A stretch of 49,186 nt of DNA from Minisyncoccota bacterium (GTDB taxonomy: Bacteria > Patescibacteriota > Minisyncoccia > UBA6257 > 02-FULL-45-10c). The notes below the pieces were generated by a model. The model ran no database searches and was not told where the DNA came from. It was given only the letters and a program-made list of their open reading frames with translations. Both the position numbers and the translations under genes were made by a program. The stretch is taken from positions 1 to 49,186 of the forward strand of contig JAQUPE010000005.1 of assembly GCA_028716745.1 (NCBI GenBank), written 5' to 3'. How positions within the stretch are numbered: the stretch's first letter is position 1; each line of letters begins with the position of its first letter. Positions 14,811-49,186 of this stretch are shown here, one piece after another.

Positions 14811-15254
14811 TCACGTTAGGGGCAGGGATTTTAGGAATTCGCGGTGGCCTAGGTCGTTTAAGGTGTGCCTGATTCTTTTGACCATTGCTTTGAACGGCGG
14901 GAATAATTTTCCGTCTTTCTGGCGTCCGAATACCGATATCCGCGCTTTGATTTCGGTAATTGCTTCTCTGATTTCATCTTTGTCTAAATCGAATATTATT
15001 ACTTCCGATATCCGATTTATTTCTTCCAGCGCTTTGATCTGTGATTCGGAATAGTCGCCCCGCTTTGCTTCTTTGATTATTGCTTCCCCGGCAGTTTTTC
15101 GGCGCTGATCAATCAATTTCTTGAATGATATAAGCGCCATCATAATTAGCGGGGTTATAACAAGAAGTGTTAGCAGGATGGCGAAGACCTCAAGGGGAAT
15201 GTGTTTGAAGATTAAAAGCGTTTCTCCTATGGTCATTGCAAATATTTCTTTCAC
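14811..15254 (-). CDS. Small membrane protein, island gene
   Basis: 147 residues, unrecognised. A transmembrane segment at about 20-44 (LEVFAILLTLLVITPLIMMALI) is followed by the basic stretch KKLIDQRRKTAGEAIIKEAKRGD. An alpha-helical domain with heptad-like character follows (IKALEEINRISEVIIFDLDKDEIREAITEIKARI). The start is GTG at 15254, with GAGGAGG eight bases upstream. The next methionine is six codons in and lacks an SD. It ends in TGA, evidence for the standard code. It follows the 61-residue gene by 16 nt and is probably in one transcript with it. Confidence 0.72.
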   Translation of the reverse strand: MKEIFAMTIGETLLIFKHIPLEVFAILLTLLVITPLIMMALISFKKLIDQRRKTAGEAIIKEAKRGDYSESQIKALEEINRISEVIIFDLDKDEIREAITEIKARISVFGRQKDGKLFPPFKAMVKRIRHTLNDLGHREFLKSLPLT

Positions 15255-15270
15255 TGGCGTATCCTCCTCG

Positions 15271-15456
15271 TTATTCGTCTTTTTCTCTGCCGAAGCAGTC
15301 GACCTTCTTTTCTTTCTGTTCTTCTGAATACGGCGGCAGTTTTTGGAGAATGGGCGCGACCACGATAAAGTAAAGAGCGAGGCCGGCCACTATGCCGATG
15401 AAAACCAACGGATGCGCAAGGAATTCTTCTTTGAGACCCGGCGTTTCTCTTATCAT
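15271..15456 (-). CDS. Single-pass membrane mini-protein, island gene
   Basis: 61 residues: MIRETPGLKEEF, then one helix at about 14-34 (HPLVFIGIVAGLALYFIVVAP), then a charged cytoplasmic tail (SEEQKEKKVDCFGREKDE). The SD AAAGGAG lies about ten bases before the ATG at 15456. Unrecognised. Its ATG overlaps a TGA in the frame that the upstream Cys-rich ORF would have if its A-run held one more A (see that entry), so the two were probably coupled as ATGA. Confidence 0.65.
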   Translation of the reverse strand: MIRETPGLKEEFLAHPLVFIGIVAGLALYFIVVAPILQKLPPYSEEQKEKKVDCFGREKDE

Positions 15457-15601
15457 TTTTTCTTCTCTCCTTTATTTTTATCCAACAAGCCCTTCTGTTC
15501 ATAGGAATGTAGTCTTTGCATTTTCTTTTATGGAAGCTTCTGTCTTCGCAGACAGCTTGAACGCTGCATCTGTTGCATATGCAAGTTTTTTGAGCTTTCA
15601 T
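15453..15601 (-). CDS. Cys-rich mini-protein, probably frame-disrupted near its end
   Basis: The ATG at 15601 is preceded by AGGAG five bases upstream. It opens about 50 codons with six cysteines at 7, 9, 12, 18, 28 and 40 (CICNRCSVQAVC ... KC), a zinc- or cluster-binding pattern. In the raw frame it continues past the start of the 61-residue gene into an arginine-rich reading that is clearly that gene out of frame, stopping only at 15251. One extra A in the A6 run at about 15456-15461 would end it with TGA overlapping the next ATG. I therefore give the frame-corrected end. This could be a real indel, an assembly error or slippage. Confidence 0.5.
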
Positions 15602-15638
15602 TTTGGCTCCTATTGATTTGTAAATGTGAATCTGCCTT

Positions 15639-15667
15639 AATTTAACGCGGATGGAATAAAATATCAA
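15639..15667 (-). promoter_or_regulatory. Promoter of the Cys-rich/61-residue/147-residue gene group
   Basis: TTGATA (15667-15662), a 17-bp spacer and TAAATT (15644-15639) on the minus strand, with a leader of about 35 nt. Confidence 0.55.
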
Positions 15668-15692
15668 GAATAGAATATAATTAAAATAGTTG

Positions 15693-15715
15693 GGCGGGTG
15701 CCCGCCAGAGGCGGG
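15693..15715. repeat. GC-rich alternating hairpin left of tRNA-Leu
   Basis: GGCGGG-tg-CCCGCC-aga-GGCGGG. The middle arm can pair with either neighbour, giving two exclusive hairpins. Confidence 0.6.
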
Positions 15716-15731
15716 TAAAGCGAAATAGAAT

Positions 15732-15813
15732 GCTCTCGTGGCGGAATTGGCATACGCGCGTGGCTTAGGACCACGTCCCGCAAGGGTTAGAGGTTCAAAT
15801 CCTCTCGAGAGCA
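15732..15813 (+). tRNA. tRNA-Leu(UAG)
   Basis: Class II tRNA: acceptor GCTCTCG/CGAGAGC, anticodon stem around loop CTTAGGA (anticodon TAG), long variable arm CCCGCAAGGG, T arm AGAGG/CCTCT. CCA is not encoded. Confidence 0.96.
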
Positions 15814-15832
15814 CAATTTTATTTTTGGGTTT

Positions 15833-15860
15833 CACCCTACGGGTGATCACCCGTAGGGTG
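15833..15860. repeat. 28-bp perfect palindrome right of tRNA-Leu
   Basis: Two identical inverted halves meet at TGATCA. Each half is itself a small hairpin with stem CACCC/GGGTG. Confidence 0.8.
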
Positions 15861-15867
15861 GCAAGTC

Positions 15868-15887
15868 CTTGCCTACCGGCAGGCAGG
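15868..15887. repeat. REP-like 20-bp element, copy 1
   Basis: CTTGCCTACCGGCAGGCAGG forms a short hairpin (GCCT/AGGC). It matches the element at 28820-28839 in about 16 of 20 positions. Related short palindromes are scattered in Parcubacteria genomes as far as I recall. Confidence 0.5.
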
Positions 15888-15909
15888 CCACCCCGCCCAC
15901 AAAATACAC

Positions 15910-15938
15910 TTGCCATTTTGGCCTAAGTATTGTATAAC
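15910..15938 (+). promoter_or_regulatory. Promoter of the secreted-protein gene
   Basis: TTGCCA (15910-15915), a 17-bp spacer and TATAAC (15933-15938). It predicts a leader of about 50 nt carrying the SD. Confidence 0.65.
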
Positions 15939-16490: not shown

Positions 16491-16517
16491 TTTAATCGCA
16501 AAAATTATTCCTCTAAA

Positions 16518-16561
16518 AACCTGTATATTATAAGTTATTATTAACATATACTATACAGGTT
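16518..16561 (-). repeat. 44-bp palindromic element, copy A
   Basis: Arms begin and end AACCTGTATA/TATACAGGTT around an AT-rich loop. On the minus strand it directly follows the xerD stop (last base overlapping) and is followed by TTTTTAGAGG. Two further copies are at 30721 and 44216. In this copy the stem has two mismatches. Confidence 0.8.
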
Positions 16562-17460
16562 TATTTTCGGCGTTTGGCATGGAAGGCTTCGTGAATTTCA
16601 CGAAGCTCTTTGTTTGTTAAGTGAGTATATATTTGCGTAGTAGAAATATTGCTGTGGCCGAGAAGTTCTTGGACGGAACGCAGATCCGCGCCGTTGATTA
16701 ATAAATCGGTAGCGTATTGGTGGCGGAGCTGGTGCGGAGTGATGTGCGACGGGATGCCGGCTTTTTTGGAATAGAAATTTACCAGGCGCTGGATTGTCCG
16801 CGGAATGATTTTGCCGATAACTTTTGGCGCCTTGGCGTGCGTCAGGCTTACGAATAGCCACTCTTCAGCGTCGCCTCGCTTGTCCAAATAATTTTTAATG
16901 GATTTTTTGGCGCTGTCGGATAAAAATACCACGCGGAGCTTGTCGCCTTTTCCGCGGACCGTAATTTCGCCCCGGTCAAAATCCAAATAGCGTTTTAAAT
17001 TGCAAAGTTCCGAAACACGGAGTCCGGTGGAAAAAAATGTTTCTAAAATCGCTTTGTCGCGGAGTCCGCGGAGATCGTCGGTTTTGGGAGCGTTCAATAA
17101 TCTTTCTAGTTCGCTGTATTCAACTATTTCAATCTGGCGCCGAGTGATTTTTGGAAGCTCAATTTTATCCGGCGACATAACGTCATAGTCGTTTTTAATC
17201 AGATATTTTAAAAAGTTCCGCAAAGCAATCATATAATATGACTGTGTAATCCTTTTAATAGAGGAGTCGTTGCGTCTGGCCAAATCAATTCGGAATTTTA
17301 TGACTTTATCAACGGAAATATCTTTCGGATCTTTTATTTTTGCCGAATCAATAAAAGTTTTTAAATATCGTCCGTAATTTTCCCGTGTTTTCAGCGCGCG
17401 TCCTTTTTCTATTTCCAGATAATCCAGATATTCATCTAAAAGTTTGTTTACATCTGCCAT
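16561..17460 (-). CDS. xerD: XerC/XerD-type tyrosine recombinase
   Basis: Tyrosine recombinase, probably the one that resolves chromosome dimers at a dif-like site, or an integrase relative. The 299 residues have an N-terminal SAM-like domain (about 1-95) and a catalytic domain with all key residues: Arg148 (STGLRVSEL), Lys171 (RGKGDKLRV), His243 and Arg246 (HQLRH), His269 (LLGHSN) and Tyr278 (IYTHL). The length matches XerC/D (about 300). The ATG at 17460 is supported by an extended -10 (TGATATACT) six bases upstream and no SD. Three direct repeats lie between it and the divergent rpsO. A palindromic repeat overlaps its stop. Confidence 0.93.
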   Translation of the reverse strand: MADVNKLLDEYLDYLEIEKGRALKTRENYGRYLKTFIDSAKIKDPKDISVDKVIKFRIDLARRNDSSIKRITQSYYMIALRNFLKYLIKNDYDVMSPDKIELPKITRRQIEIVEYSELERLLNAPKTDDLRGLRDKAILETFFSTGLRVSELCNLKRYLDFDRGEITVRGKGDKLRVVFLSDSAKKSIKNYLDKRGDAEEWLFVSLTHAKAPKVIGKIIPRTIQRLVNFYSKKAGIPSHITPHQLRHQYATDLLINGADLRSVQELLGHSNISTTQIYTHLTNKELREIHEAFHAKRRK

Positions 17461-25061: not shown

Positions 25062-25565
25062 ATGAAGAGCATGACTCTTATTGGTATGCCTGGGTCTGGA
25101 AAATCCACCATTGGCAAACTTTTAGCCCGAAAATTAGGCTGGGTTTTTATTGATTTAGATGATTTGATTAAGGAAAAAACAGGCAAAACTTACAGTCAGA
25201 TTTTAGAGCAAGACGGAGGCAAAAAACTTATAGAGATAGAAAATCAATTTACTTTAGATTTAAAATTTGATAAGCCGGCAGTTTTTTCTCCTGGAGGAAG
25301 TATTATTTATTCCATGCAGGCGATGGAAAAATTGAAGAAAGAAACAACTGTTGTTTATATAGAATTATTGATTAATGAAGTAAAAAAACGATTGGATGGA
25401 CGCGCTGATAAAGGCGGAATAATTGGGCTAAAAGAAAAGGGAATAGATAGGCTGTATGAAGAAAGAGCGATAATATATAAAACGATGGCGGATTTTACAG
25501 TTAAGACAGACGGTTTAAATGAGGATCAAATAGCAGACGAAATTTTGAAAGTTGTTCAGAAATAA
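25062..25565 (+). CDS. aroK: Shikimate kinase-like protein
   Basis: 167 residues of the shikimate kinase fold: Walker A GMPGSGKST (8-16), the shikimate-binding DLDDLI near 31-36, a GG(S) region SPGGSIIYSMQAM near 76-88 and a lid arginine in RLDGRADKGG near 109-118. The enzyme phosphorylates shikimate on the way to chorismate. The substrate GGG motif reads PGGS and the usual early Arg after DxD is not obvious, so a related small-molecule kinase is possible. It starts three bases after the tyrS stop, hence coupled. Tyrosine use and aromatic synthesis side by side is a suggestive pairing. A perfect palindromic terminator follows. Confidence 0.78.
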   Translation: MKSMTLIGMPGSGKSTIGKLLARKLGWVFIDLDDLIKEKTGKTYSQILEQDGGKKLIEIENQFTLDLKFDKPAVFSPGGSIIYSMQAMEKLKKETTVVYIELLINEVKKRLDGRADKGGIIGLKEKGIDRLYEERAIIYKTMADFTVKTDGLNEDQIADEILKVVQK

Positions 25566-25589
25566 AAACAACCCGCGCGGGTTGTTTTT
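25564..25589. terminator. Palindromic bidirectional terminator
   Basis: A 26-bp perfect palindrome, AAAAACAACCCGC mirrored, between aroK and the convergent hypothetical gene. Confidence 0.88.
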
Positions 25590-25596
25590 ATTTCTA

Positions 25597-26544
25597 CTAC
25601 ATAACTTTTGGCATCCCATTAGGATCATATTTTATATAAATATTTGAACATTTAGATTTTTTATAAACTTGTACTCTTCTGGCGGCCTCGTAATTTGGGT
25701 CTTCTTTTAATGCATCCAAATTAATGGAGCTATCGATTTTTTTGAGGGGGTTATCGTTAAATAAATAACACATTTCAACAAGAATTGTTTTATTGCCAGT
25801 TTTAAATTCTCCTGGTACGGGGACAACTTGCAAATCACCGGGTTCTAAATCATAGATTGTTGTTGTTGCTTGTCTTAAGGATGTTTTTGTAAAGTATATA
25901 TCAGCAAATTCAGGAATAATATTATGTAAAGATACTCTTCCGATATTTTCTATTTTTAAATCACTTTCAAAGGGGGTGATTTTAAGCGAAACATTGAATT
26001 CGGGAGAATAACTTAAGTTAATTAATTGTTTGCTTATATTATTTTGTCCATAAGCAATAAAGGCCGCAAAAATTCCAACTACAAAAACTACGGCAGTTTG
26101 AAGAAGATTAGAATCCAAAAGTTTCCAATGTTTTTTAATAAAAGTTAATATTTTTCCCTTATTAAACCAGCTGTTTTCTTCTGATATTTTAGATGGATAA
26201 AAATCTAATTGTTCTTTTGAGATGCCCAACCTGGATGTTCCATAGGCACGAGCTTCGTTCCAGGAATTTTTATCGTTTGGATTTAAATTAAATATTTTAT
26301 TCTTAAAAACAACAATTAGAGTTTTGCCCTCATCATAAATGTTAAAATAATAAGGTTTATCAGTCGCCATTGCGCTTTGAATCTTTTTAATTGTCTTTTC
26401 GAGGTCAGGAATTTCGACTATGTGTAAATGCCAGTTTATATCTTCGGGAGTTTCTTTCGGTGCAAATTTAGTTCTCAAAATCTTATAGTTTTCTAAGATT
26501 TTAGGTTTTTTTAAACTTTCCTCAATAATTACTGAGTGATACAT
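25597..26544 (-). CDS. Hypothetical protein: small conserved domain plus membrane-anchored external domain
   Basis: 315 residues. The N-terminal part (about 1-125) resembles a small family of unknown function that I recall in Patescibacteria and Firmicutes. Its features are VIIEESL at the start, WHLHIVEIP, YYFNIYDEGKTLIVVFKNKIF and GISKEQLDFYP. A transmembrane helix follows at about 148-168 (LLQTAVVFVVGIFAAFIAYG), then an external beta-rich domain of about 145 residues (VSLKITPFESDLKIENIGRVSLHNI; ends NIYIKYDPNGMPKVM). The function is unknown. The ATG at 26544 has no SD and ordinary AT-rich codon use. Confidence 0.75.
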   Translation of the reverse strand: MYHSVIIEESLKKPKILENYKILRTKFAPKETPEDINWHLHIVEIPDLEKTIKKIQSAMATDKPYYFNIYDEGKTLIVVFKNKIFNLNPNDKNSWNEARAYGTSRLGISKEQLDFYPSKISEENSWFNKGKILTFIKKHWKLLDSNLLQTAVVFVVGIFAAFIAYGQNNISKQLINLSYSPEFNVSLKITPFESDLKIENIGRVSLHNIIPEFADIYFTKTSLRQATTTIYDLEPGDLQVVPVPGEFKTGNKTILVEMCYLFNDNPLKKIDSSINLDALKEDPNYEAARRVQVYKKSKCSNIYIKYDPNGMPKVM

Positions 26545-30699: not shown

Positions 30700-30720
30700 T
30701 TCTCTCTAATCTAAAATTTA

Positions 30721-30764
30721 AACCTGTATATTATATGATAATTGTAACATATGATATACAGGTT
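30721..30764 (+). repeat. 44-bp palindromic element, copy B
   Basis: A 17-bp stem with one G-T pair closes a 10-nt loop, followed by TTTTTTGAGGGG. It lies between the convergent aminotransferase and hsp20 genes and probably also serves as a terminator. Confidence 0.85.
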
Positions 30765-30786
30765 TTTTGAGGGGAATTTTGGAAAA

Positions 30787-34348: not shown

Positions 34349-34370
34349 CCCCCGATTTTGGGGGTTTTTT
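34349..34370 (+). terminator. Terminator of the ndk-like gene
   Basis: CCCCC-GATTTT-GGGGG followed by six T residues (34349-34370). Confidence 0.88.
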
Positions 34371-34381
34371 ATTTAAATATT

Positions 34382-34390
34382 TGATATAAT
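34382..34390 (+). promoter_or_regulatory. Extended -10 promoter of pilin copy 1
   Basis: TGATATAAT, a perfect extended -10. Its last two bases are the A and T of the first in-frame ATG, so that ATG cannot be the translation start. Confidence 0.65.
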
Positions 34391-34406
34391 GAAATACACA
34401 GTTGAA

Positions 34407-35939
34407 ATGATAAATTTTATAAGGTTAAAGATTAGAAATATTTTTATTAAAAAGATTCAGGGCATTAAGGCCTTTACTCTCGTTGAGTTGGTTGTTGTAA
34501 TAGGCATTCTAACTATATTAGCTACGGTAACTTTATTAGTAATAAATCCCACAGAGCTCAACAGGCAGGCTAGGGATTCTCAAAGATTATCGGATTTGCA
34601 GACTATCAATAGCGCATTGGGCTTATTCCAATCATATAATCTTACTCTGACCGGTACAGCCAACACCGTATATACATCCTTATCCAGTAATACAGCGGAT
34701 TGTTCTGATCTTGGCCTTCCTGCCTTACCAGCCGGTTGGAGCTATGCTTGCGTTACAGCAAATAATTTAAGGAAAATAGACGGCACGGGCTGGATACCTG
34801 TAGATTTTACTCAGGTCCAAACAAACTCTGGATCTCTGTTTGCGGCTTTGCCAATAGATCCTACCAATACGGCTACGGGAGATTTTTACTATACCTACGT
34901 CAAAGGATCTTGGGCGCTGTCCGCTAAAATAGAATCAACTAAATTTCTTACTAATGCTCAAAATGACGGAGGAGCCACCACTACACGATTTGAAGTTGGA
35001 GGAGGCGGGGCCATTGTCACTGATAATGCTTGGACTGTAGCAGTAGTAGCAGATCCAACTTGTTCTGACAGCACAAAAAATCAAGACGAAACAGATGTCG
35101 ATTGTGGAGGAGATGTTTGCGACGCCTGTGCTAATGGATTAGTTTGTGTAGACAATGCAGATTGCACATCAAATACTTGTACTGCCGGGGTATGTACGGC
35201 TGCGCCAATAGCATGCGGGGCGGGAGATACGACGGGGATGGTAAGTTATTGGAATGGCGATAGCACGGTAGCAGATGTAATGGGCACAAATAATGGAACT
35301 GACATGGGGGCTGTTGCATATGCTGCTGGCAAGGTTGGCAATGCATTTAATTTTAATAATACGTCAAATAACGGAGTTACAATTACAACGACTGGTTTCC
35401 CGATGGGAAATAGTTCTAGGAGTATAGAGGCCTGGGTAAATTTTAATTCTTGTACAGGAGCATTAAACCCGTTAGTTTATGGAACTGCCGGTTATAAAAC
35501 ATATTCTAGTTCGCCACAGCCTTCGTGCACATCGGGACATTTAGGATATTCTGGTTATAATTTTGAATATCATAAAACATCGCTTACATTTACTCCGGGA
35601 ACCTGGTATCACATTGTTACTACGTTTAACGGCACAACTTTGAAAGTTTACAAAGACGGATATTTAGTTGGAGAAAGCAATGTTACTGATTATGATCCAA
35701 TTAGCGGGCCGGGTAGCGCGCTTAGTGGAATGAATACTACCAGCGGGGCAGAGCATTTTTTGGGCCATGTTAATTGGTGGGGTTATTGGGATGATGGAAA
35801 AGAAGATGAAATTGCTATATACAATGAGGTTCTTTCTGACGGAGGATGCACTATCGGCGGAGATATCTGCGGAGGAGACATAGGCGATCATTACGCGAGA
35901 GGCGTTGCAGGGAATCCGTATTGTCCATATACGCCTTAA
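34407..35939 (+). CDS. Type IV pseudopilin with Cys-rich segment and LamG-like lectin domain (pilin copy 1)
   Basis: 510 residues from the ATG at 34407; the first ATG (34389) overlaps the -10 box. A class III signal is present: basic leader, then A before FTLVELVVVIGILTILATV with Phe at +1 and Glu at +5, as in prepilin-peptidase substrates. A pilin-like head of about 170 residues follows. A Cys-rich stretch (about 217-257, TDVDCGGDVCDACANG) comes next. A laminin-G/ConA-like domain lies at about 270-480 (MVSYWNGDSTVADVMGTNNGT, RSIEAWVNFN, TWYHIVTTFNGTTLKVYKDG). The C-terminal tail HYARGVAGNPYCPYTP is shared with copy 2. It is probably a surface-displayed adhesin. It ends in a hairpin that carries a tsaD remnant. 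Confidence 0.88.
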   Translation: MINFIRLKIRNIFIKKIQGIKAFTLVELVVVIGILTILATVTLLVINPTELNRQARDSQRLSDLQTINSALGLFQSYNLTLTGTANTVYTSLSSNTADCSDLGLPALPAGWSYACVTANNLRKIDGTGWIPVDFTQVQTNSGSLFAALPIDPTNTATGDFYYTYVKGSWALSAKIESTKFLTNAQNDGGATTTRFEVGGGGAIVTDNAWTVAVVADPTCSDSTKNQDETDVDCGGDVCDACANGLVCVDNADCTSNTCTAGVCTAAPIACGAGDTTGMVSYWNGDSTVADVMGTNNGTDMGAVAYAAGKVGNAFNFNNTSNNGVTITTTGFPMGNSSRSIEAWVNFNSCTGALNPLVYGTAGYKTYSSSPQPSCTSGHLGYSGYNFEYHKTSLTFTPGTWYHIVTTFNGTTLKVYKDGYLVGESNVTDYDPISGPGSALSGMNTTSGAEHFLGHVNWWGYWDDGKEDEIAIYNEVLSDGGCTIGGDICGGDIGDHYARGVAGNPYCPYTP

Positions 35940-35946
35940 TATAAAA

Positions 35947-35997
35947 TTATATTGTCAGATTAGAATCCGCCTCAAATTTCAGAGGCGGATTTTTTGA
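35947..35997 (-). pseudogene. Remnant of the tsaD 3' end downstream of pilin copy 1
   Basis: Read on the minus strand this encodes QKNPPLKFEADSNLTI plus stop. That is the same 16-residue end as the intact tsaD at 37474 except Leu for Ile. It has no start or upstream body, so it is a duplicated fragment. Confidence 0.85.
35964..35995 (+). terminator. Terminator of pilin copy 1
   Basis: AATCCGCCTC/GAGGCGGATT (35964-35973 with 35982-35991), loop AAATTTCA, then T residues. It is a copy of 37491-37522. Confidence 0.88.
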
Positions 35998-36015
35998 GTA
36001 AATCAAATTAAAACC

Positions 36016-36038
36016 CCCTAATTATTTTAGGGTTTTTT
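36016..36038 (+). terminator. Weaker hairpin upstream of pilin copy 2
   Basis: CCCTAA/TTAGGG followed by six T residues. It sits where the ndk terminator sits relative to copy 1, so it is a diverged duplicate. Confidence 0.55.
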
Positions 36039-36049
36039 ATTTAAATATT

Positions 36050-36058
36050 TGATATAAT
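36050..36058 (+). promoter_or_regulatory. Extended -10 promoter of pilin copy 2
   Basis: TGATATAAT within a 60-bp stretch nearly identical to that before copy 1. Confidence 0.65.
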
Positions 36059-36074
36059 GAAATACACAGTTGAA

Positions 36075-37466
36075 ATGATAAATTTTATAAGGCTAAAAAT
36101 AAGAATTTTCTCTAATATATCTAAACAAGTTAAAAAAAATAGGGCCTTCACCCTCGTCGAACTCGTAGTCGTCCTAGGCATCCTAGCTATATTAGCCACA
36201 GTAACTCTATTAGTAATCAACCCCACAGAGCTGAACAGACAAGCTAGAGACGCTCAAAGACTCTCAGATCTCCAAACAATAAACAGCGCCATAGGTCTAT
36301 TTCAATCATATAACTACACCCTAACCGGCACAGCTAATACCGTATATATATCTCTGCCCAGCAACCAAGCAGACTGCTCAGACCTCGGACTAGCAGCCCT
36401 CCCAGCAGGATGGTCCTATGCCTGCAAGACATCCACCAACTACAGAAAGATAGATAGCACAGGCTGGATCCCCGTAGACTTCACCCAAGTCCAAACCTCA
36501 GCAGGATCTCTATTTGCAGCTCTGCCTATAGACCCCACCAACACAGCCACAGGCGGACTCTACTATACATACGTCAAAGGCTCCTGGGCTCTATCTGCAG
36601 GCATAGAGTCAGCTAAATTCCTCGCAGACAACGCCACCAACGACGGAGGCGCAACCACCACCAGATTCGAGATTGGAGGAGGCGGAGACCTTGTAGCTAA
36701 TGGAGCGTGGACAGCGGCGGCGGTAGAGCAAACAGCATGTGGTGAGGGGGATACAGACGGGATGGTGAGTTATTGGAAATTAGATGAAACTTCCGCTGGA
36801 TCGGTTGTTGACGTAATGGGTGCAAACAATGGAACAAATAATGGGGCGACAATAAATCAGACTGGACAAGTTGAAAAGGCTTATAGTTTTGATGGCGGCA
36901 GTGATTATATTAGTACTTTTAAATTTAATTCAGTTAATTTTACTGTTAGCGCCTGGGTTAAGCCAAGTAGCTTGGGAAGCTGGATGAGAGTCGCGAGTCA
37001 ATCAGATCATAATGGAGCTTGGGTAAATTCAGATTTTAATTTAAGTATGTCACCTACAGGAGCATTGAGTACGGAAGTATTTAGCAATTGCGGCGCTTCA
37101 TCTGGGGGTTTTGATACTGAAGCTGTAATGAATACAGTTGATTGGCAGTATGTCGTTGAGACTTATGATGGTTCGACTATTAAAATTTATCGCAACGGAG
37201 TTTTTTTGCAGAGCTCTTCGTTCTTAAGCAGAACTGCTTGTGGGCAAAGATCGGTGTTAATTGGTGCAAGATGGGCTAACAATAACGAAGTTGATACCAC
37301 TCAATATTTTAATGGTTTAATAGACGAAGCAGTTATTTATAATACGGCATTAACTGGCCCGGCTGTTAGTTGTGCCATAAATGATCCCGATGCGACAATA
37401 TATGATATTTGTAAGCATTATGCGAGAGGTGTTGCAGAGAATCCGTATTGTCCGTATACGCCTTAA
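36075..37466 (+). CDS. Type IV pseudopilin with LamG-like lectin domain (pilin copy 2, mosaic)
   Basis: 463 residues from the ATG at 36075 (an in-frame ATG at 36057 overlaps the -10 box). It has the same layout as copy 1: class III signal (A before FTLVELVVVLGILAILATV), a pilin head about 85% like copy 1, and a LamG/ConA-like domain (about 225-440, MVSYWKLDETSAGSVVDVMG, FTVSAWVKPSS, WQYVVETYDGSTIKIYRNG). The tail HYARGVAENPYCPYTP is shared. The copy 1 Cys-rich stretch is absent. Bases 36146 to about 36690 use C- and A-ending codons, unlike the flanks, and 36146-36561 is almost identical to copy 3, so the gene is a mosaic. It converges on tsaD. Confidence 0.88.
   Translation: MINFIRLKIRIFSNISKQVKKNRAFTLVELVVVLGILAILATVTLLVINPTELNRQARDAQRLSDLQTINSAIGLFQSYNYTLTGTANTVYISLPSNQADCSDLGLAALPAGWSYACKTSTNYRKIDSTGWIPVDFTQVQTSAGSLFAALPIDPTNTATGGLYYTYVKGSWALSAGIESAKFLADNATNDGGATTTRFEIGGGGDLVANGAWTAAAVEQTACGEGDTDGMVSYWKLDETSAGSVVDVMGANNGTNNGATINQTGQVEKAYSFDGGSDYISTFKFNSVNFTVSAWVKPSSLGSWMRVASQSDHNGAWVNSDFNLSMSPTGALSTEVFSNCGASSGGFDTEAVMNTVDWQYVVETYDGSTIKIYRNGVFLQSSSFLSRTACGQRSVLIGARWANNNEVDTTQYFNGLIDEAVIYNTALTGPAVSCAINDPDATIYDICKHYARGVAENPYCPYTP
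36146..36561 (+). repeat. 416-bp block shared with pilin copy 3
   Basis: Matches 48771-49186 with one mismatch that I found (A/C in the sixth valine-rich codon region, near 36166). The match reaches the window edge, so its true length is unknown. Confidence 0.92.
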
Positions 37467-37473
37467 TATAAAA

Positions 37474-38508
37474 TTATATTGTAATATTAGAATCCGCCTC
37501 AAATTTCAGAGGCGGATTTTTTTGAAGCAAGTCAAAATATGCAGCGGCTGCAATCATGGCGGCGTTGTCGGTATTGAATTCAAAGCTTGGCGCAAAAAAT
37601 TTCTTGCCGGAATTTTCAATGGCGCGGCGCATTATTTCTCGCAGAGTTTTATTGGCCGAGACGCCGCCGGATAGCATTGCGGATTTAGCTTTATATTGTT
37701 TTGCCGCGCTTAAAGTTTTTTGAGTTAAAACATCAATAACTGCTTGCTGAAATGAAGCCGCAACATCATTTTTGGAAGCGTTCGGATGGTCGCGGAGATA
37801 ATATAATACGGAAGTTTTTAATCCTGAAAAACTGAAATTATAATTTTTTTGAAAATCTTTTAGAGAGCCTAAAAGGGGCCGCGGAAATTTTATGGCATTG
37901 GGATTGCCGAGCATAGCGGATTTTTCTATTTCCGGTCCTCCTGGATACGGGAGTTCAAGCATTCGCGCTACTTTATCAAAGGCTTCTCCGGCGGCATCAT
38001 CAATTGTTTCTCCTAGTTTTTTCCATTTAGTGGAGCTTTGCATGAGCAGGATCATTGTATGTCCGCCGCTGACGACGGCAGAGATAGACGGAAAAATATT
38101 TTTGAAATTTTTTTGAGGAGACAGCCAATTCGAATAAAGATGCCCCTTCATATGATTTACGCCCATAAGAGGCTTATTCGTTTTCTTTGCCAATTCTTGC
38201 GCAAAAGTTATTCCTGTCCAAAGCGCCGGCTCCAGTCCGGGGCCGACCGTAACGGCGATATAATCGATTTTTTTAATATCAAAATTTTTAGCGGTTAATT
38301 TAAGAATTTTAGGAAGGTTTTTAATATGCTCCCGCTTGGCAAGATTGGGAACTACGCCTCCGAAGGGGCGGTGGATTTTTATTTGAGAAGAAACAATATT
38401 TGATAAGACTTCAAATTTTGGCGCATTTACGCCGCCGGAACATTTTACAACGGCGATAGAAGTATCGTCGCAGCTTGTTTCTATGGCAAGAATATTAATC
38501 TTTTTCAT
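37474..38508 (-). CDS. tsaD: tRNA N6-threonylcarbamoyladenosine synthase subunit TsaD
   Basis: Catalytic subunit that attaches threonylcarbamoyl to A37 of ANN-decoding tRNAs. 344 residues in the ASKHA fold: ETSCDDTSIAV (10-20), metal ligands His119 and His123 in VNHMKGHLYS, SGGHTMILL near 139-147, GGPEIEK and SGGVSANKTLR near 276-286. Length is normal (E. coli 337). The last 15 codons (KNPPLKFEADSNITI) run through the hairpin that terminates pilin copy 2, so one sequence is both coding and a terminator. tRNA-Glu lies just upstream on the same strand. Confidence 0.96.
   Translation of the reverse strand: MKKINILAIETSCDDTSIAVVKCSGGVNAPKFEVLSNIVSSQIKIHRPFGGVVPNLAKREHIKNLPKILKLTAKNFDIKKIDYIAVTVGPGLEPALWTGITFAQELAKKTNKPLMGVNHMKGHLYSNWLSPQKNFKNIFPSISAVVSGGHTMILLMQSSTKWKKLGETIDDAAGEAFDKVARMLELPYPGGPEIEKSAMLGNPNAIKFPRPLLGSLKDFQKNYNFSFSGLKTSVLYYLRDHPNASKNDVAASFQQAVIDVLTQKTLSAAKQYKAKSAMLSGGVSANKTLREIMRRAIENSGKKFFAPSFEFNTDNAAMIAAAAYFDLLQKNPPLKFEADSNITI
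37491..37522 (+). terminator. Terminator of pilin copy 2, embedded in the tsaD 3' end
   Basis: AATCCGCCTC/GAGGCGGATT (37491-37500 with 37509-37518) and a T-run on the plus strand. Confidence 0.85.
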
Positions 38509-44062: not shown

Positions 44063-44215
44063 ATGATGTCAAACATTAGGGAATTTCTAAAAAAACGAGA
44101 AGTTATTTTATTCTTGCTCCTATTTTTAATCGGCTCCCTCAGTTTCGGACTTGGCTATCTGGCGGCGGGGGAATATAACAAATCACCAATCATTATTGAA
44201 AAATGCTCAAAATAA
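44063..44215 (+). CDS. Single-pass membrane mini-protein, 50 residues
   Basis: Starts MMSNIREFLKKREVILF and has one helix at about 14-35 (VILFLLLFLIGSLSFGLGYLAA). The external tail ends SPIIIEKCSK. AAGG lies just before the paired ATGs at 44063 and 44066. I recall similar short proteins ending PIIIEK in Parcubacteria, of unknown function. The stop is followed at once by the third palindromic element. Confidence 0.72.
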   Translation: MMSNIREFLKKREVILFLLLFLIGSLSFGLGYLAAGEYNKSPIIIEKCSK

Positions 44216-44259
44216 AACCTGTATATTATATGATAATTGTAACATATAGTATACAGGTT
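44216..44259 (+). repeat. 44-bp palindromic element, copy C
   Basis: The same 17-bp arms and 10-nt loop as copy B. The single G-T pair sits one position over. It starts directly after the stop of the mini-protein and is followed by TTTGAGGGGG. Confidence 0.85.
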
Positions 44260-44320
44260 TGAGGGGGAGGGAAAAGGAAAGAGAAAAGAGTAAAAAAGAA
44301 AAATAAAAAAGAGGGGAATT
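44260..44320. other. Polypurine tract
   Basis: About 60 bases almost free of pyrimidines on the plus strand; the first 29 are purines only. It lies between palindromic element C and a terminator. Confidence 0.7.
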
Positions 44321-48678: not shown

Positions 48679-49186
48679 ATGCTCCAGCTCCTCATCTTTT
48701 ATTTCCCCAGATTCTTCCGAAGCAATAGAAAAGCTTCTATTATACATGTCTCCAAATACCTCCAATCCTCCTTCACCCTCGTCGAACTCGTCGTCGTCCT
48801 AGGCATCCTAGCTATATTAGCCACAGTAACTCTATTAGTAATCAACCCCACAGAGCTGAACAGACAAGCTAGAGACGCTCAAAGACTCTCAGATCTCCAA
48901 ACAATAAACAGCGCCATAGGTCTATTTCAATCATATAACTACACCCTAACCGGCACAGCTAATACCGTATATATATCTCTGCCCAGCAACCAAGCAGACT
49001 GCTCAGACCTCGGACTAGCAGCCCTCCCAGCAGGATGGTCCTATGCCTGCAAGACATCCACCAACTACAGAAAGATAGATAGCACAGGCTGGATCCCCGT
49101 AGACTTCACCCAAGTCCAAACCTCAGCAGGATCTCTATTTGCAGCTCTGCCTATAGACCCCACCAACACAGCCACAGGCGGACTCT
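48679..49186 (+). CDS. Type IV pseudopilin, N-terminal part (pilin copy 3, runs off the right edge)
   Basis: About 169 residues are visible. A new leader (MLQLLIFYFPRFFRSNRK to YLQSS) replaces that of copies 1 and 2. The protein then equals copy 2 from FTLVELVVV to the edge, except that one valine codon differs. The Phe+1/Glu+5 pilin signal is kept. Unlike in copy 2, the C- and A-ending codon style starts at the first codon, so this copy may be closer to the source of the block. Any lectin domain lies outside the window. It follows the GT4 gene by 22 nt. Confidence 0.85.
   Translation, partial: MLQLLIFYFPRFFRSNRKASIIHVSKYLQSSFTLVELVVVLGILAILATVTLLVINPTELNRQARDAQRLSDLQTINSAIGLFQSYNYTLTGTANTVYISLPSNQADCSDLGLAALPAGWSYACKTSTNYRKIDSTGWIPVDFTQVQTSAGSLFAALPIDPTNTATGGL

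Follow-up and report, generated by a model that had tools for sequence, protein, structure and literature searches.

Near-identical heads of dispersed modular type IV pilin genes in a Paceibacterota bacterium suggest homogenisation by gene conversion

The window analysed here, a stretch of 49,186 bp that is the whole of contig C5, raises the question of why pilin genes with different beginnings and different ends carry almost the same front half. The source organism is a Paceibacterota bacterium, and its genome (660,737 bp in 15 contigs) is 98.3% complete. Judging from sequence comparison, we consider it likely that pilin heads have been homogenised by gene conversion among dispersed modular type IV pilin genes, while their leaders and tails persist.

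The initial annotation reported a nearly identical block in two pilin copies of the window, here copies 2 and 3. Positions 36146-36561 indeed equal 48771-49186 with a sole mismatch, A at 36167 and C at 48792 (BLAST of the block pair: 417 bp, 99.76%, E=0), and identity is lost abruptly to the left of 36146/48771. The match does run to the window edge as described, but this edge is simply the end of the contig; 416 bp is therefore a minimum and not a biological length. We rejected 416 bp as the block length, the end of the match being set by an assembly-graph merge at the contig end. The right boundary, which was to be mapped by extending copy 3, was read from copy 2 against the tails on contigs C1, C2 and C4, and lies at about 36689-36705.

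When such blocks were counted genome-wide, at least five near-identical heads were found rather than two, and the two-locus event proposed earlier is not supported. The five, two on C5 and the others on C8, C6 and C9, show 93-99.8% identity over the matched stretch, and additional head paralogues are found at 71-73%. All five have the left edge CTTCACC in common, in which TTC is the codon for F(+1), where the mature pilin starts. In at least five copies the leaders are unrelated, and the LamG-type tails differ wherever they can be read. Copy 2 carries its tandem neighbour's leader, copy 3 and the C6 copy have one leader end, and the C8 and C9 copies have another. The near-identical front halves thus stand beside unrelated start signals and back halves, and therefore the front half would have been copied repeatedly between genes within the genome. 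In the C6 copy, about 95% identity switches sharply to ordinary divergence at 36634/36635.

The distant copy had been taken as the donor. At site 36167, however, copy 2 groups with the C6 and C9 copies while copy 3 groups with the C8 copy, so that the donor cannot be named and the direction cannot be told. The sequence pattern suggests that the history of head sharing probably comprised more than one event.

Copy 2 itself is a mosaic, as the coordinates in the table indicate.

Features of the pilin copies in the window
Feature	Position	Strand	Remarks
Copy 1, type IV modular pilin	34389..35939	+	N_methyl head and Laminin_G_3 tail; unshared head; genome-typical codons
Promoter-like stretch with start codons and the first codons of the leader	36030..36092	+	same 63 nt as in copy 1 (34362-34424)
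Copy 2, mosaic modular pilin	36057..37466	+	469 aa; in tandem with copy 1
Shared A/C-rich head block	36146..36705	+	left edge at F(+1) codon; right edge varies with the partner compared, 36689-36705 (36634 versus C6)
Copy-2-specific tail	36706..37415	+	Laminin_G_3 at about 36891-37367; genome-typical codons
C-terminal codons and 3′ flank of copy 2	37416..37539	+	91.8% identical to 35889-36010 of copy 1
Copy 3	48679..49186	+	TATAAT precedes ATG 48679; leader differs; head shared from 48771 on; truncated at contig end
Terminal 127-mer of contig	49060..49186	+	identical to 36435-36561; assembly-graph join

The initial annotation had assigned the 5′ flank and first codons of copy 2 to copy 1 and its head to copy 3, and both assignments were borne out (63 of 63 nt and 99.8%, respectively). 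It had also been right that copy 1 encodes a similar protein with many synonymous differences, as DNA identity is 73% over 34472-34879 and protein identity is 86% over the mature-pilin stretch. Over the whole head, copies 1 and 2 share 72.7% of their DNA, and fewer than 55% of their same-residue codons are identical, the pair falling below the 0.55 listing threshold. Because the flanks are near-identical but the heads only 72.7% alike, divergence since a tandem duplication is not sufficient on its own. In order, copy 2 consists of a copy 1-like leader, the shared head, its own tail and a copy 1-like 3′ end; as the 3′ end, too, matches copy 1, the gene combines four or more segments that differ in history.

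These genes have the marks of modular pilins, namely a class III signal peptide or N_methyl domain (PF07963 over cut-off), F(+1), E(+5) and an FTLVE motif in the head, and a C-terminal PF13385, present in both copy 1 and copy 2 as well as in 9 of 9 other genes or tail fragments scanned. N_methyl pilins above the cut-off number 17 in the genome, and most shared-head genes stand alone at dispersed loci. At the end of several leaders stands a recurring peptide, SHAKGQAS (CACGCCAAAGGACAGGCAAGC), in some of them as two tandem copies. We considered CACGCCAAAGGACAGGCAAGC, which precedes three heads (C8:30015-30035, C9:25792-25812 and C11:5786-5806; also in G001 C13), as a recombination site and rejected it, as the genome has only three occurrences, all in pilin leaders, and other shared heads lack it.

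Modular pilins have been described as widespread, candidate phyla included (PMC8179133). PilB and the lectin-type PilC of S. sanguinis likewise join an N-terminal type IV pilin module to a large grafted C-terminal domain, and the extra module of PilC is a ConA-like lectin of the same superfamily as Laminin_G_3 here (PMC8179133, PMC9934059). On the other hand, the two S. sanguinis proteins are minor pilins encoded in a single pil locus, whereas in the present 0.66-Mb genome about a dozen genes, mostly dispersed, appear to exchange the pilin module.

Could short-read assembly, through repeat collapse or mis-joining, account for both the mosaic form of copy 2 and the near-identity? Contig ends of the genome have exact 127-mers in common, from which a de Bruijn assembly at k=127 is deduced, and 6 of the 30 contig ends fall within the near-identical pilin family. 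C5, C8 and C9 end inside a pilin head, whereas C1, C2 and C4 begin in the 3′ part of a head and continue into different Laminin-G tails; three further pilin genes are therefore split across these six ends. C5 stops at 49186 because the assembly graph merges near-identical pilin copies there, and the stretch 36435-36561 starts one base past 36434, the last SNP separating copies 2 and 3 from the C8 copy. Over at least 394 nt, a length above k, copies 2 and 3 do not differ, and graph simplification can erase true differences. Since the head-to-tail join of copy 2 spans a repeat longer than k, graph collapse could affect both this join and the 99.8% figure.

However, collapse cannot yield five different leader contexts before one head, and the left junctions directly follow unique sequence. 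Nor can it produce what is seen in related genomes. In G003, the e and f heads lie on one 554-kb contig and are 93-100% alike over 500 nt, then 47-73%. A pair of heads in G015 shows 98-100% identity over 500 nt and then 54-85%, mostly 54-71%. Thus misassembly, named earlier as what would refute the proposal, has been answered in part: the 5′ junctions and the resolved copies of the relatives stand, while the copy 2 join and the 99.8% remain exposed. As an explanation of the whole pattern, an artefact is improbable. Pilin-head repeats do break short-read assemblies of such genomes, four contig ends of G001 also stopping about 90-127 bases into such a head, and the pilin repertoire is therefore likely under-counted in databases. 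As for the genome bin, the left end of C12 (L046) is very GC-rich and an ORF on C11 (L192, 11-22.8 kb) is lipoprotein-like with different codon usage; C12 and C11 may be partly foreign to it.

The artefact is also at odds with the trees of heads and tails, which were built from 26 full-length genes of five genomes, genome-label changes being counted against 200 shuffles. The head tree clusters by genome: it needs 5 label changes where 4 is the minimum possible, the shuffles average 15.0, and not one of the 200 reaches so low a count. The tail tree shows 15 label changes (shuffled 15.1) and hence no clustering by genome; its support is patchy, with stars on 6 of 23 branches, and some of the tails have long branches. 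Clean orthologue pairs are available for a few genes only. Tail sisters from different genomes are C6b of G000 with C30b of G001 (tail 79%, head 62% in amino acids) and C11 with C8b of G001 (tail 67%, head 56%). C6b and C11 form a second homogenised pair within the source genome, as these paralogues are 89% alike in heads and 30% in tails. The pilin locus on C4 of the source genome and that on C11 of G001 are adjoined by the same block of neighbouring genes. Head tracts are thus more alike within than between genomes, and their flanks are not.

This is the pattern of concerted evolution in multigene families, in which paralogues of one genome likewise resemble each other more than orthologues do, over a bounded tract. 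Unlike in the general case, only one domain of a surface protein is involved, the tract is bounded by the prepilin cleavage site on one side and the module border on the other, and third-position composition is unusual and strand-asymmetric. Protein-level selection on the pilin can account for identity in amino acids but not at synonymous sites. The gene conversion or cassette exchange of the initial annotation is thus retained, on the basis of the mosaic copy 2, the five copies with unrelated leaders, the cases in relatives and the conflict of head and tail trees; its donor, its two loci and its 416 bp are not.

The course of events that we infer, including the enzymes, frequency and direction of conversion and the adhesive function, may be as follows. 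Each gene consists of a unique promoter and leader, a pilin module (the head) and a Laminin-G/ConA-lectin-like tail. Homologous recombination between paralogues, most likely RecA-dependent, would copy the head from gene to gene, so that the heads would evolve in concert within the genome while tails and positions stay put. Because the pilin module is the only long homology between paralogues, the tracts would stop where it does, namely at the cleavage site and at the module border. RecA and ComEC are present in the genome, and both may take part. In this way all subunits would continue to fit a single filament and assembly machine, although the binding modules on display differ. By likeness to S. 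sanguinis (PMC9934059), an adhesive role of the lectin-like tails is plausible.

Sharp edges at both module borders, with one head type joined to several tails, could also result if recent head copies at new places were fused, much as in exon shuffling, to existing leaders and lectin domains, with no homologous exchange between pre-existing pilins. However, positional and tail orthologues in other species also carry pilin heads, and the recipients therefore already had heads. Moreover, the tandem of copies 1 and 2 represents replacement inside an existing gene, and the tract edge of the C6 copy falls within the head. Duplication with tail grafting is accordingly hard to sustain, and we give it a small chance.

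Conversion between type IV pilin genes, in a genome with RecA, recalls the pilE/pilS system of Neisseria (PMC3547852, PMC6796969). There, silent cassettes diversify one expressed gene, whereas here a conserved head seems to be homogenised among apparently intact genes whose tails differ. Programmed antigenic variation with silent donors and one expression site is very improbable, because the exchanged part is the constant N-terminal module and not the variable part. Furthermore, every head with an assembled 5′ end has an in-frame leader, no promoterless silent cassette being seen among these heads; complete genes are open, and most are alone and dispersed. A shufflon or other invertible pilin would have inverted segments and recombinase sites next to the gene; within the window, self-BLAST listed no inverted repeat at the copies. 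As a separate observation, one pilin of G003 (L160; G003:C3, about 412488, minus strand) has an in-frame TAA about 52 codons into the mature head, the rest being open, and is possibly a pseudogene or a silent donor copy.

Returning to gene conversion among paralogues, the shared heads also differ in codon composition. Third-position A+C is 0.81 in the heads, with A at 0.38, C at 0.43, G at 0.06 and T at 0.13, and 0.48 ± 0.07 in sampled ORFs of the genome. In two-fold, Ile and AGY codons, C is used over T in 33 of 43 cases in the head versus 15 of 88 in the copy 2 tail (Fisher p = 5e-11). When the same protein was recoded with local codon usage, A+C was 0.468 ± 0.012, compared with the real 0.617. 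Among 44 modular heads of eight genomes, third-position A+C over the first 40 codons correlates with nearest-paralogue identity (rho 0.70), as a pattern only, since near-identical copies are not independent points and a p-value is not meaningful. In three of those eight genomes, short tandem pilins average 0.36.

Horizontal acquisition of an A/C-rich head spreading as a mobile unit would account for so strong an outlier in codon usage, but is the least probable explanation, as the closest outside relative is a same-genus head (72% in amino acids), the edges match domain edges and not element ends, the bias recurs in distinct heads of sister species only about 70-73% alike in DNA, making one foreign acquisition an unlikely cause, and a mobile-element, plasmid or phage origin was rejected when the shared head had no match among plasmids and viral contigs and the genome had none to reverse transcriptase (PF00078), the mark of a diversity-generating retroelement.

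The bias is strand-asymmetric and tracks homogenisation, and expression does not explain it. In the stretch of ribosomal-protein, EF-Tu and EF-G genes, third-position A+C is about 0.43-0.69, not 0.81, and the NNC share is 0.16-0.60 versus 0.77 in the head; the tail within the same gene has ordinary codons. Classic GC-biased gene conversion was rejected as well, as third-position G falls while C rises. A tie between the A/C-rich (G/T-poor) signature and recombination is a tentative suggestion that we regard as rather unlikely. A strand-specific conversion bias might yield the signature, or selection might favour a G/T-rich, unstructured template strand for efficient RecA pairing, in which case the heads would be self-maintaining recombination hot spots within coding sequence. 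RecA holds TGG-repeat and TG-rich single strands most stably (PMC3763553). The template strand of the heads is G/T-rich, and the relevance of the RecA preference to it is speculation. The composition signature poses a testable question on what drives conversion.

For a 0.66-Mb genome, sharing one repeatedly homogenised pilin core among many lectin-type tails would be an easy way to maintain a wide binding repertoire with one machine. Type IV pili are a leading candidate for host contact in Patescibacteria. Cultivated members live on other microbes (PMC12206443). Searches of the open-licence literature yielded no account of pilin modules being homogenised in Patescibacteria.

Some other features of the window were observed. 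A near-palindromic repeat of roughly 45-65 bp occurs three times (16510-16575, 30711-30774 and 44206-44266; 83-88% identity) and has a REP/MITE-like look. A perfect 38-bp palindrome at 25558-25595, at the end of ORF 25062-25565 and just before 25597-26544, is probably a bidirectional terminator. ORF 15251-15916 starts with GLPAGRQGLATL, which presumably resembles a dispersed LPAGRQG-type repeat of candidate-phyla genomes.
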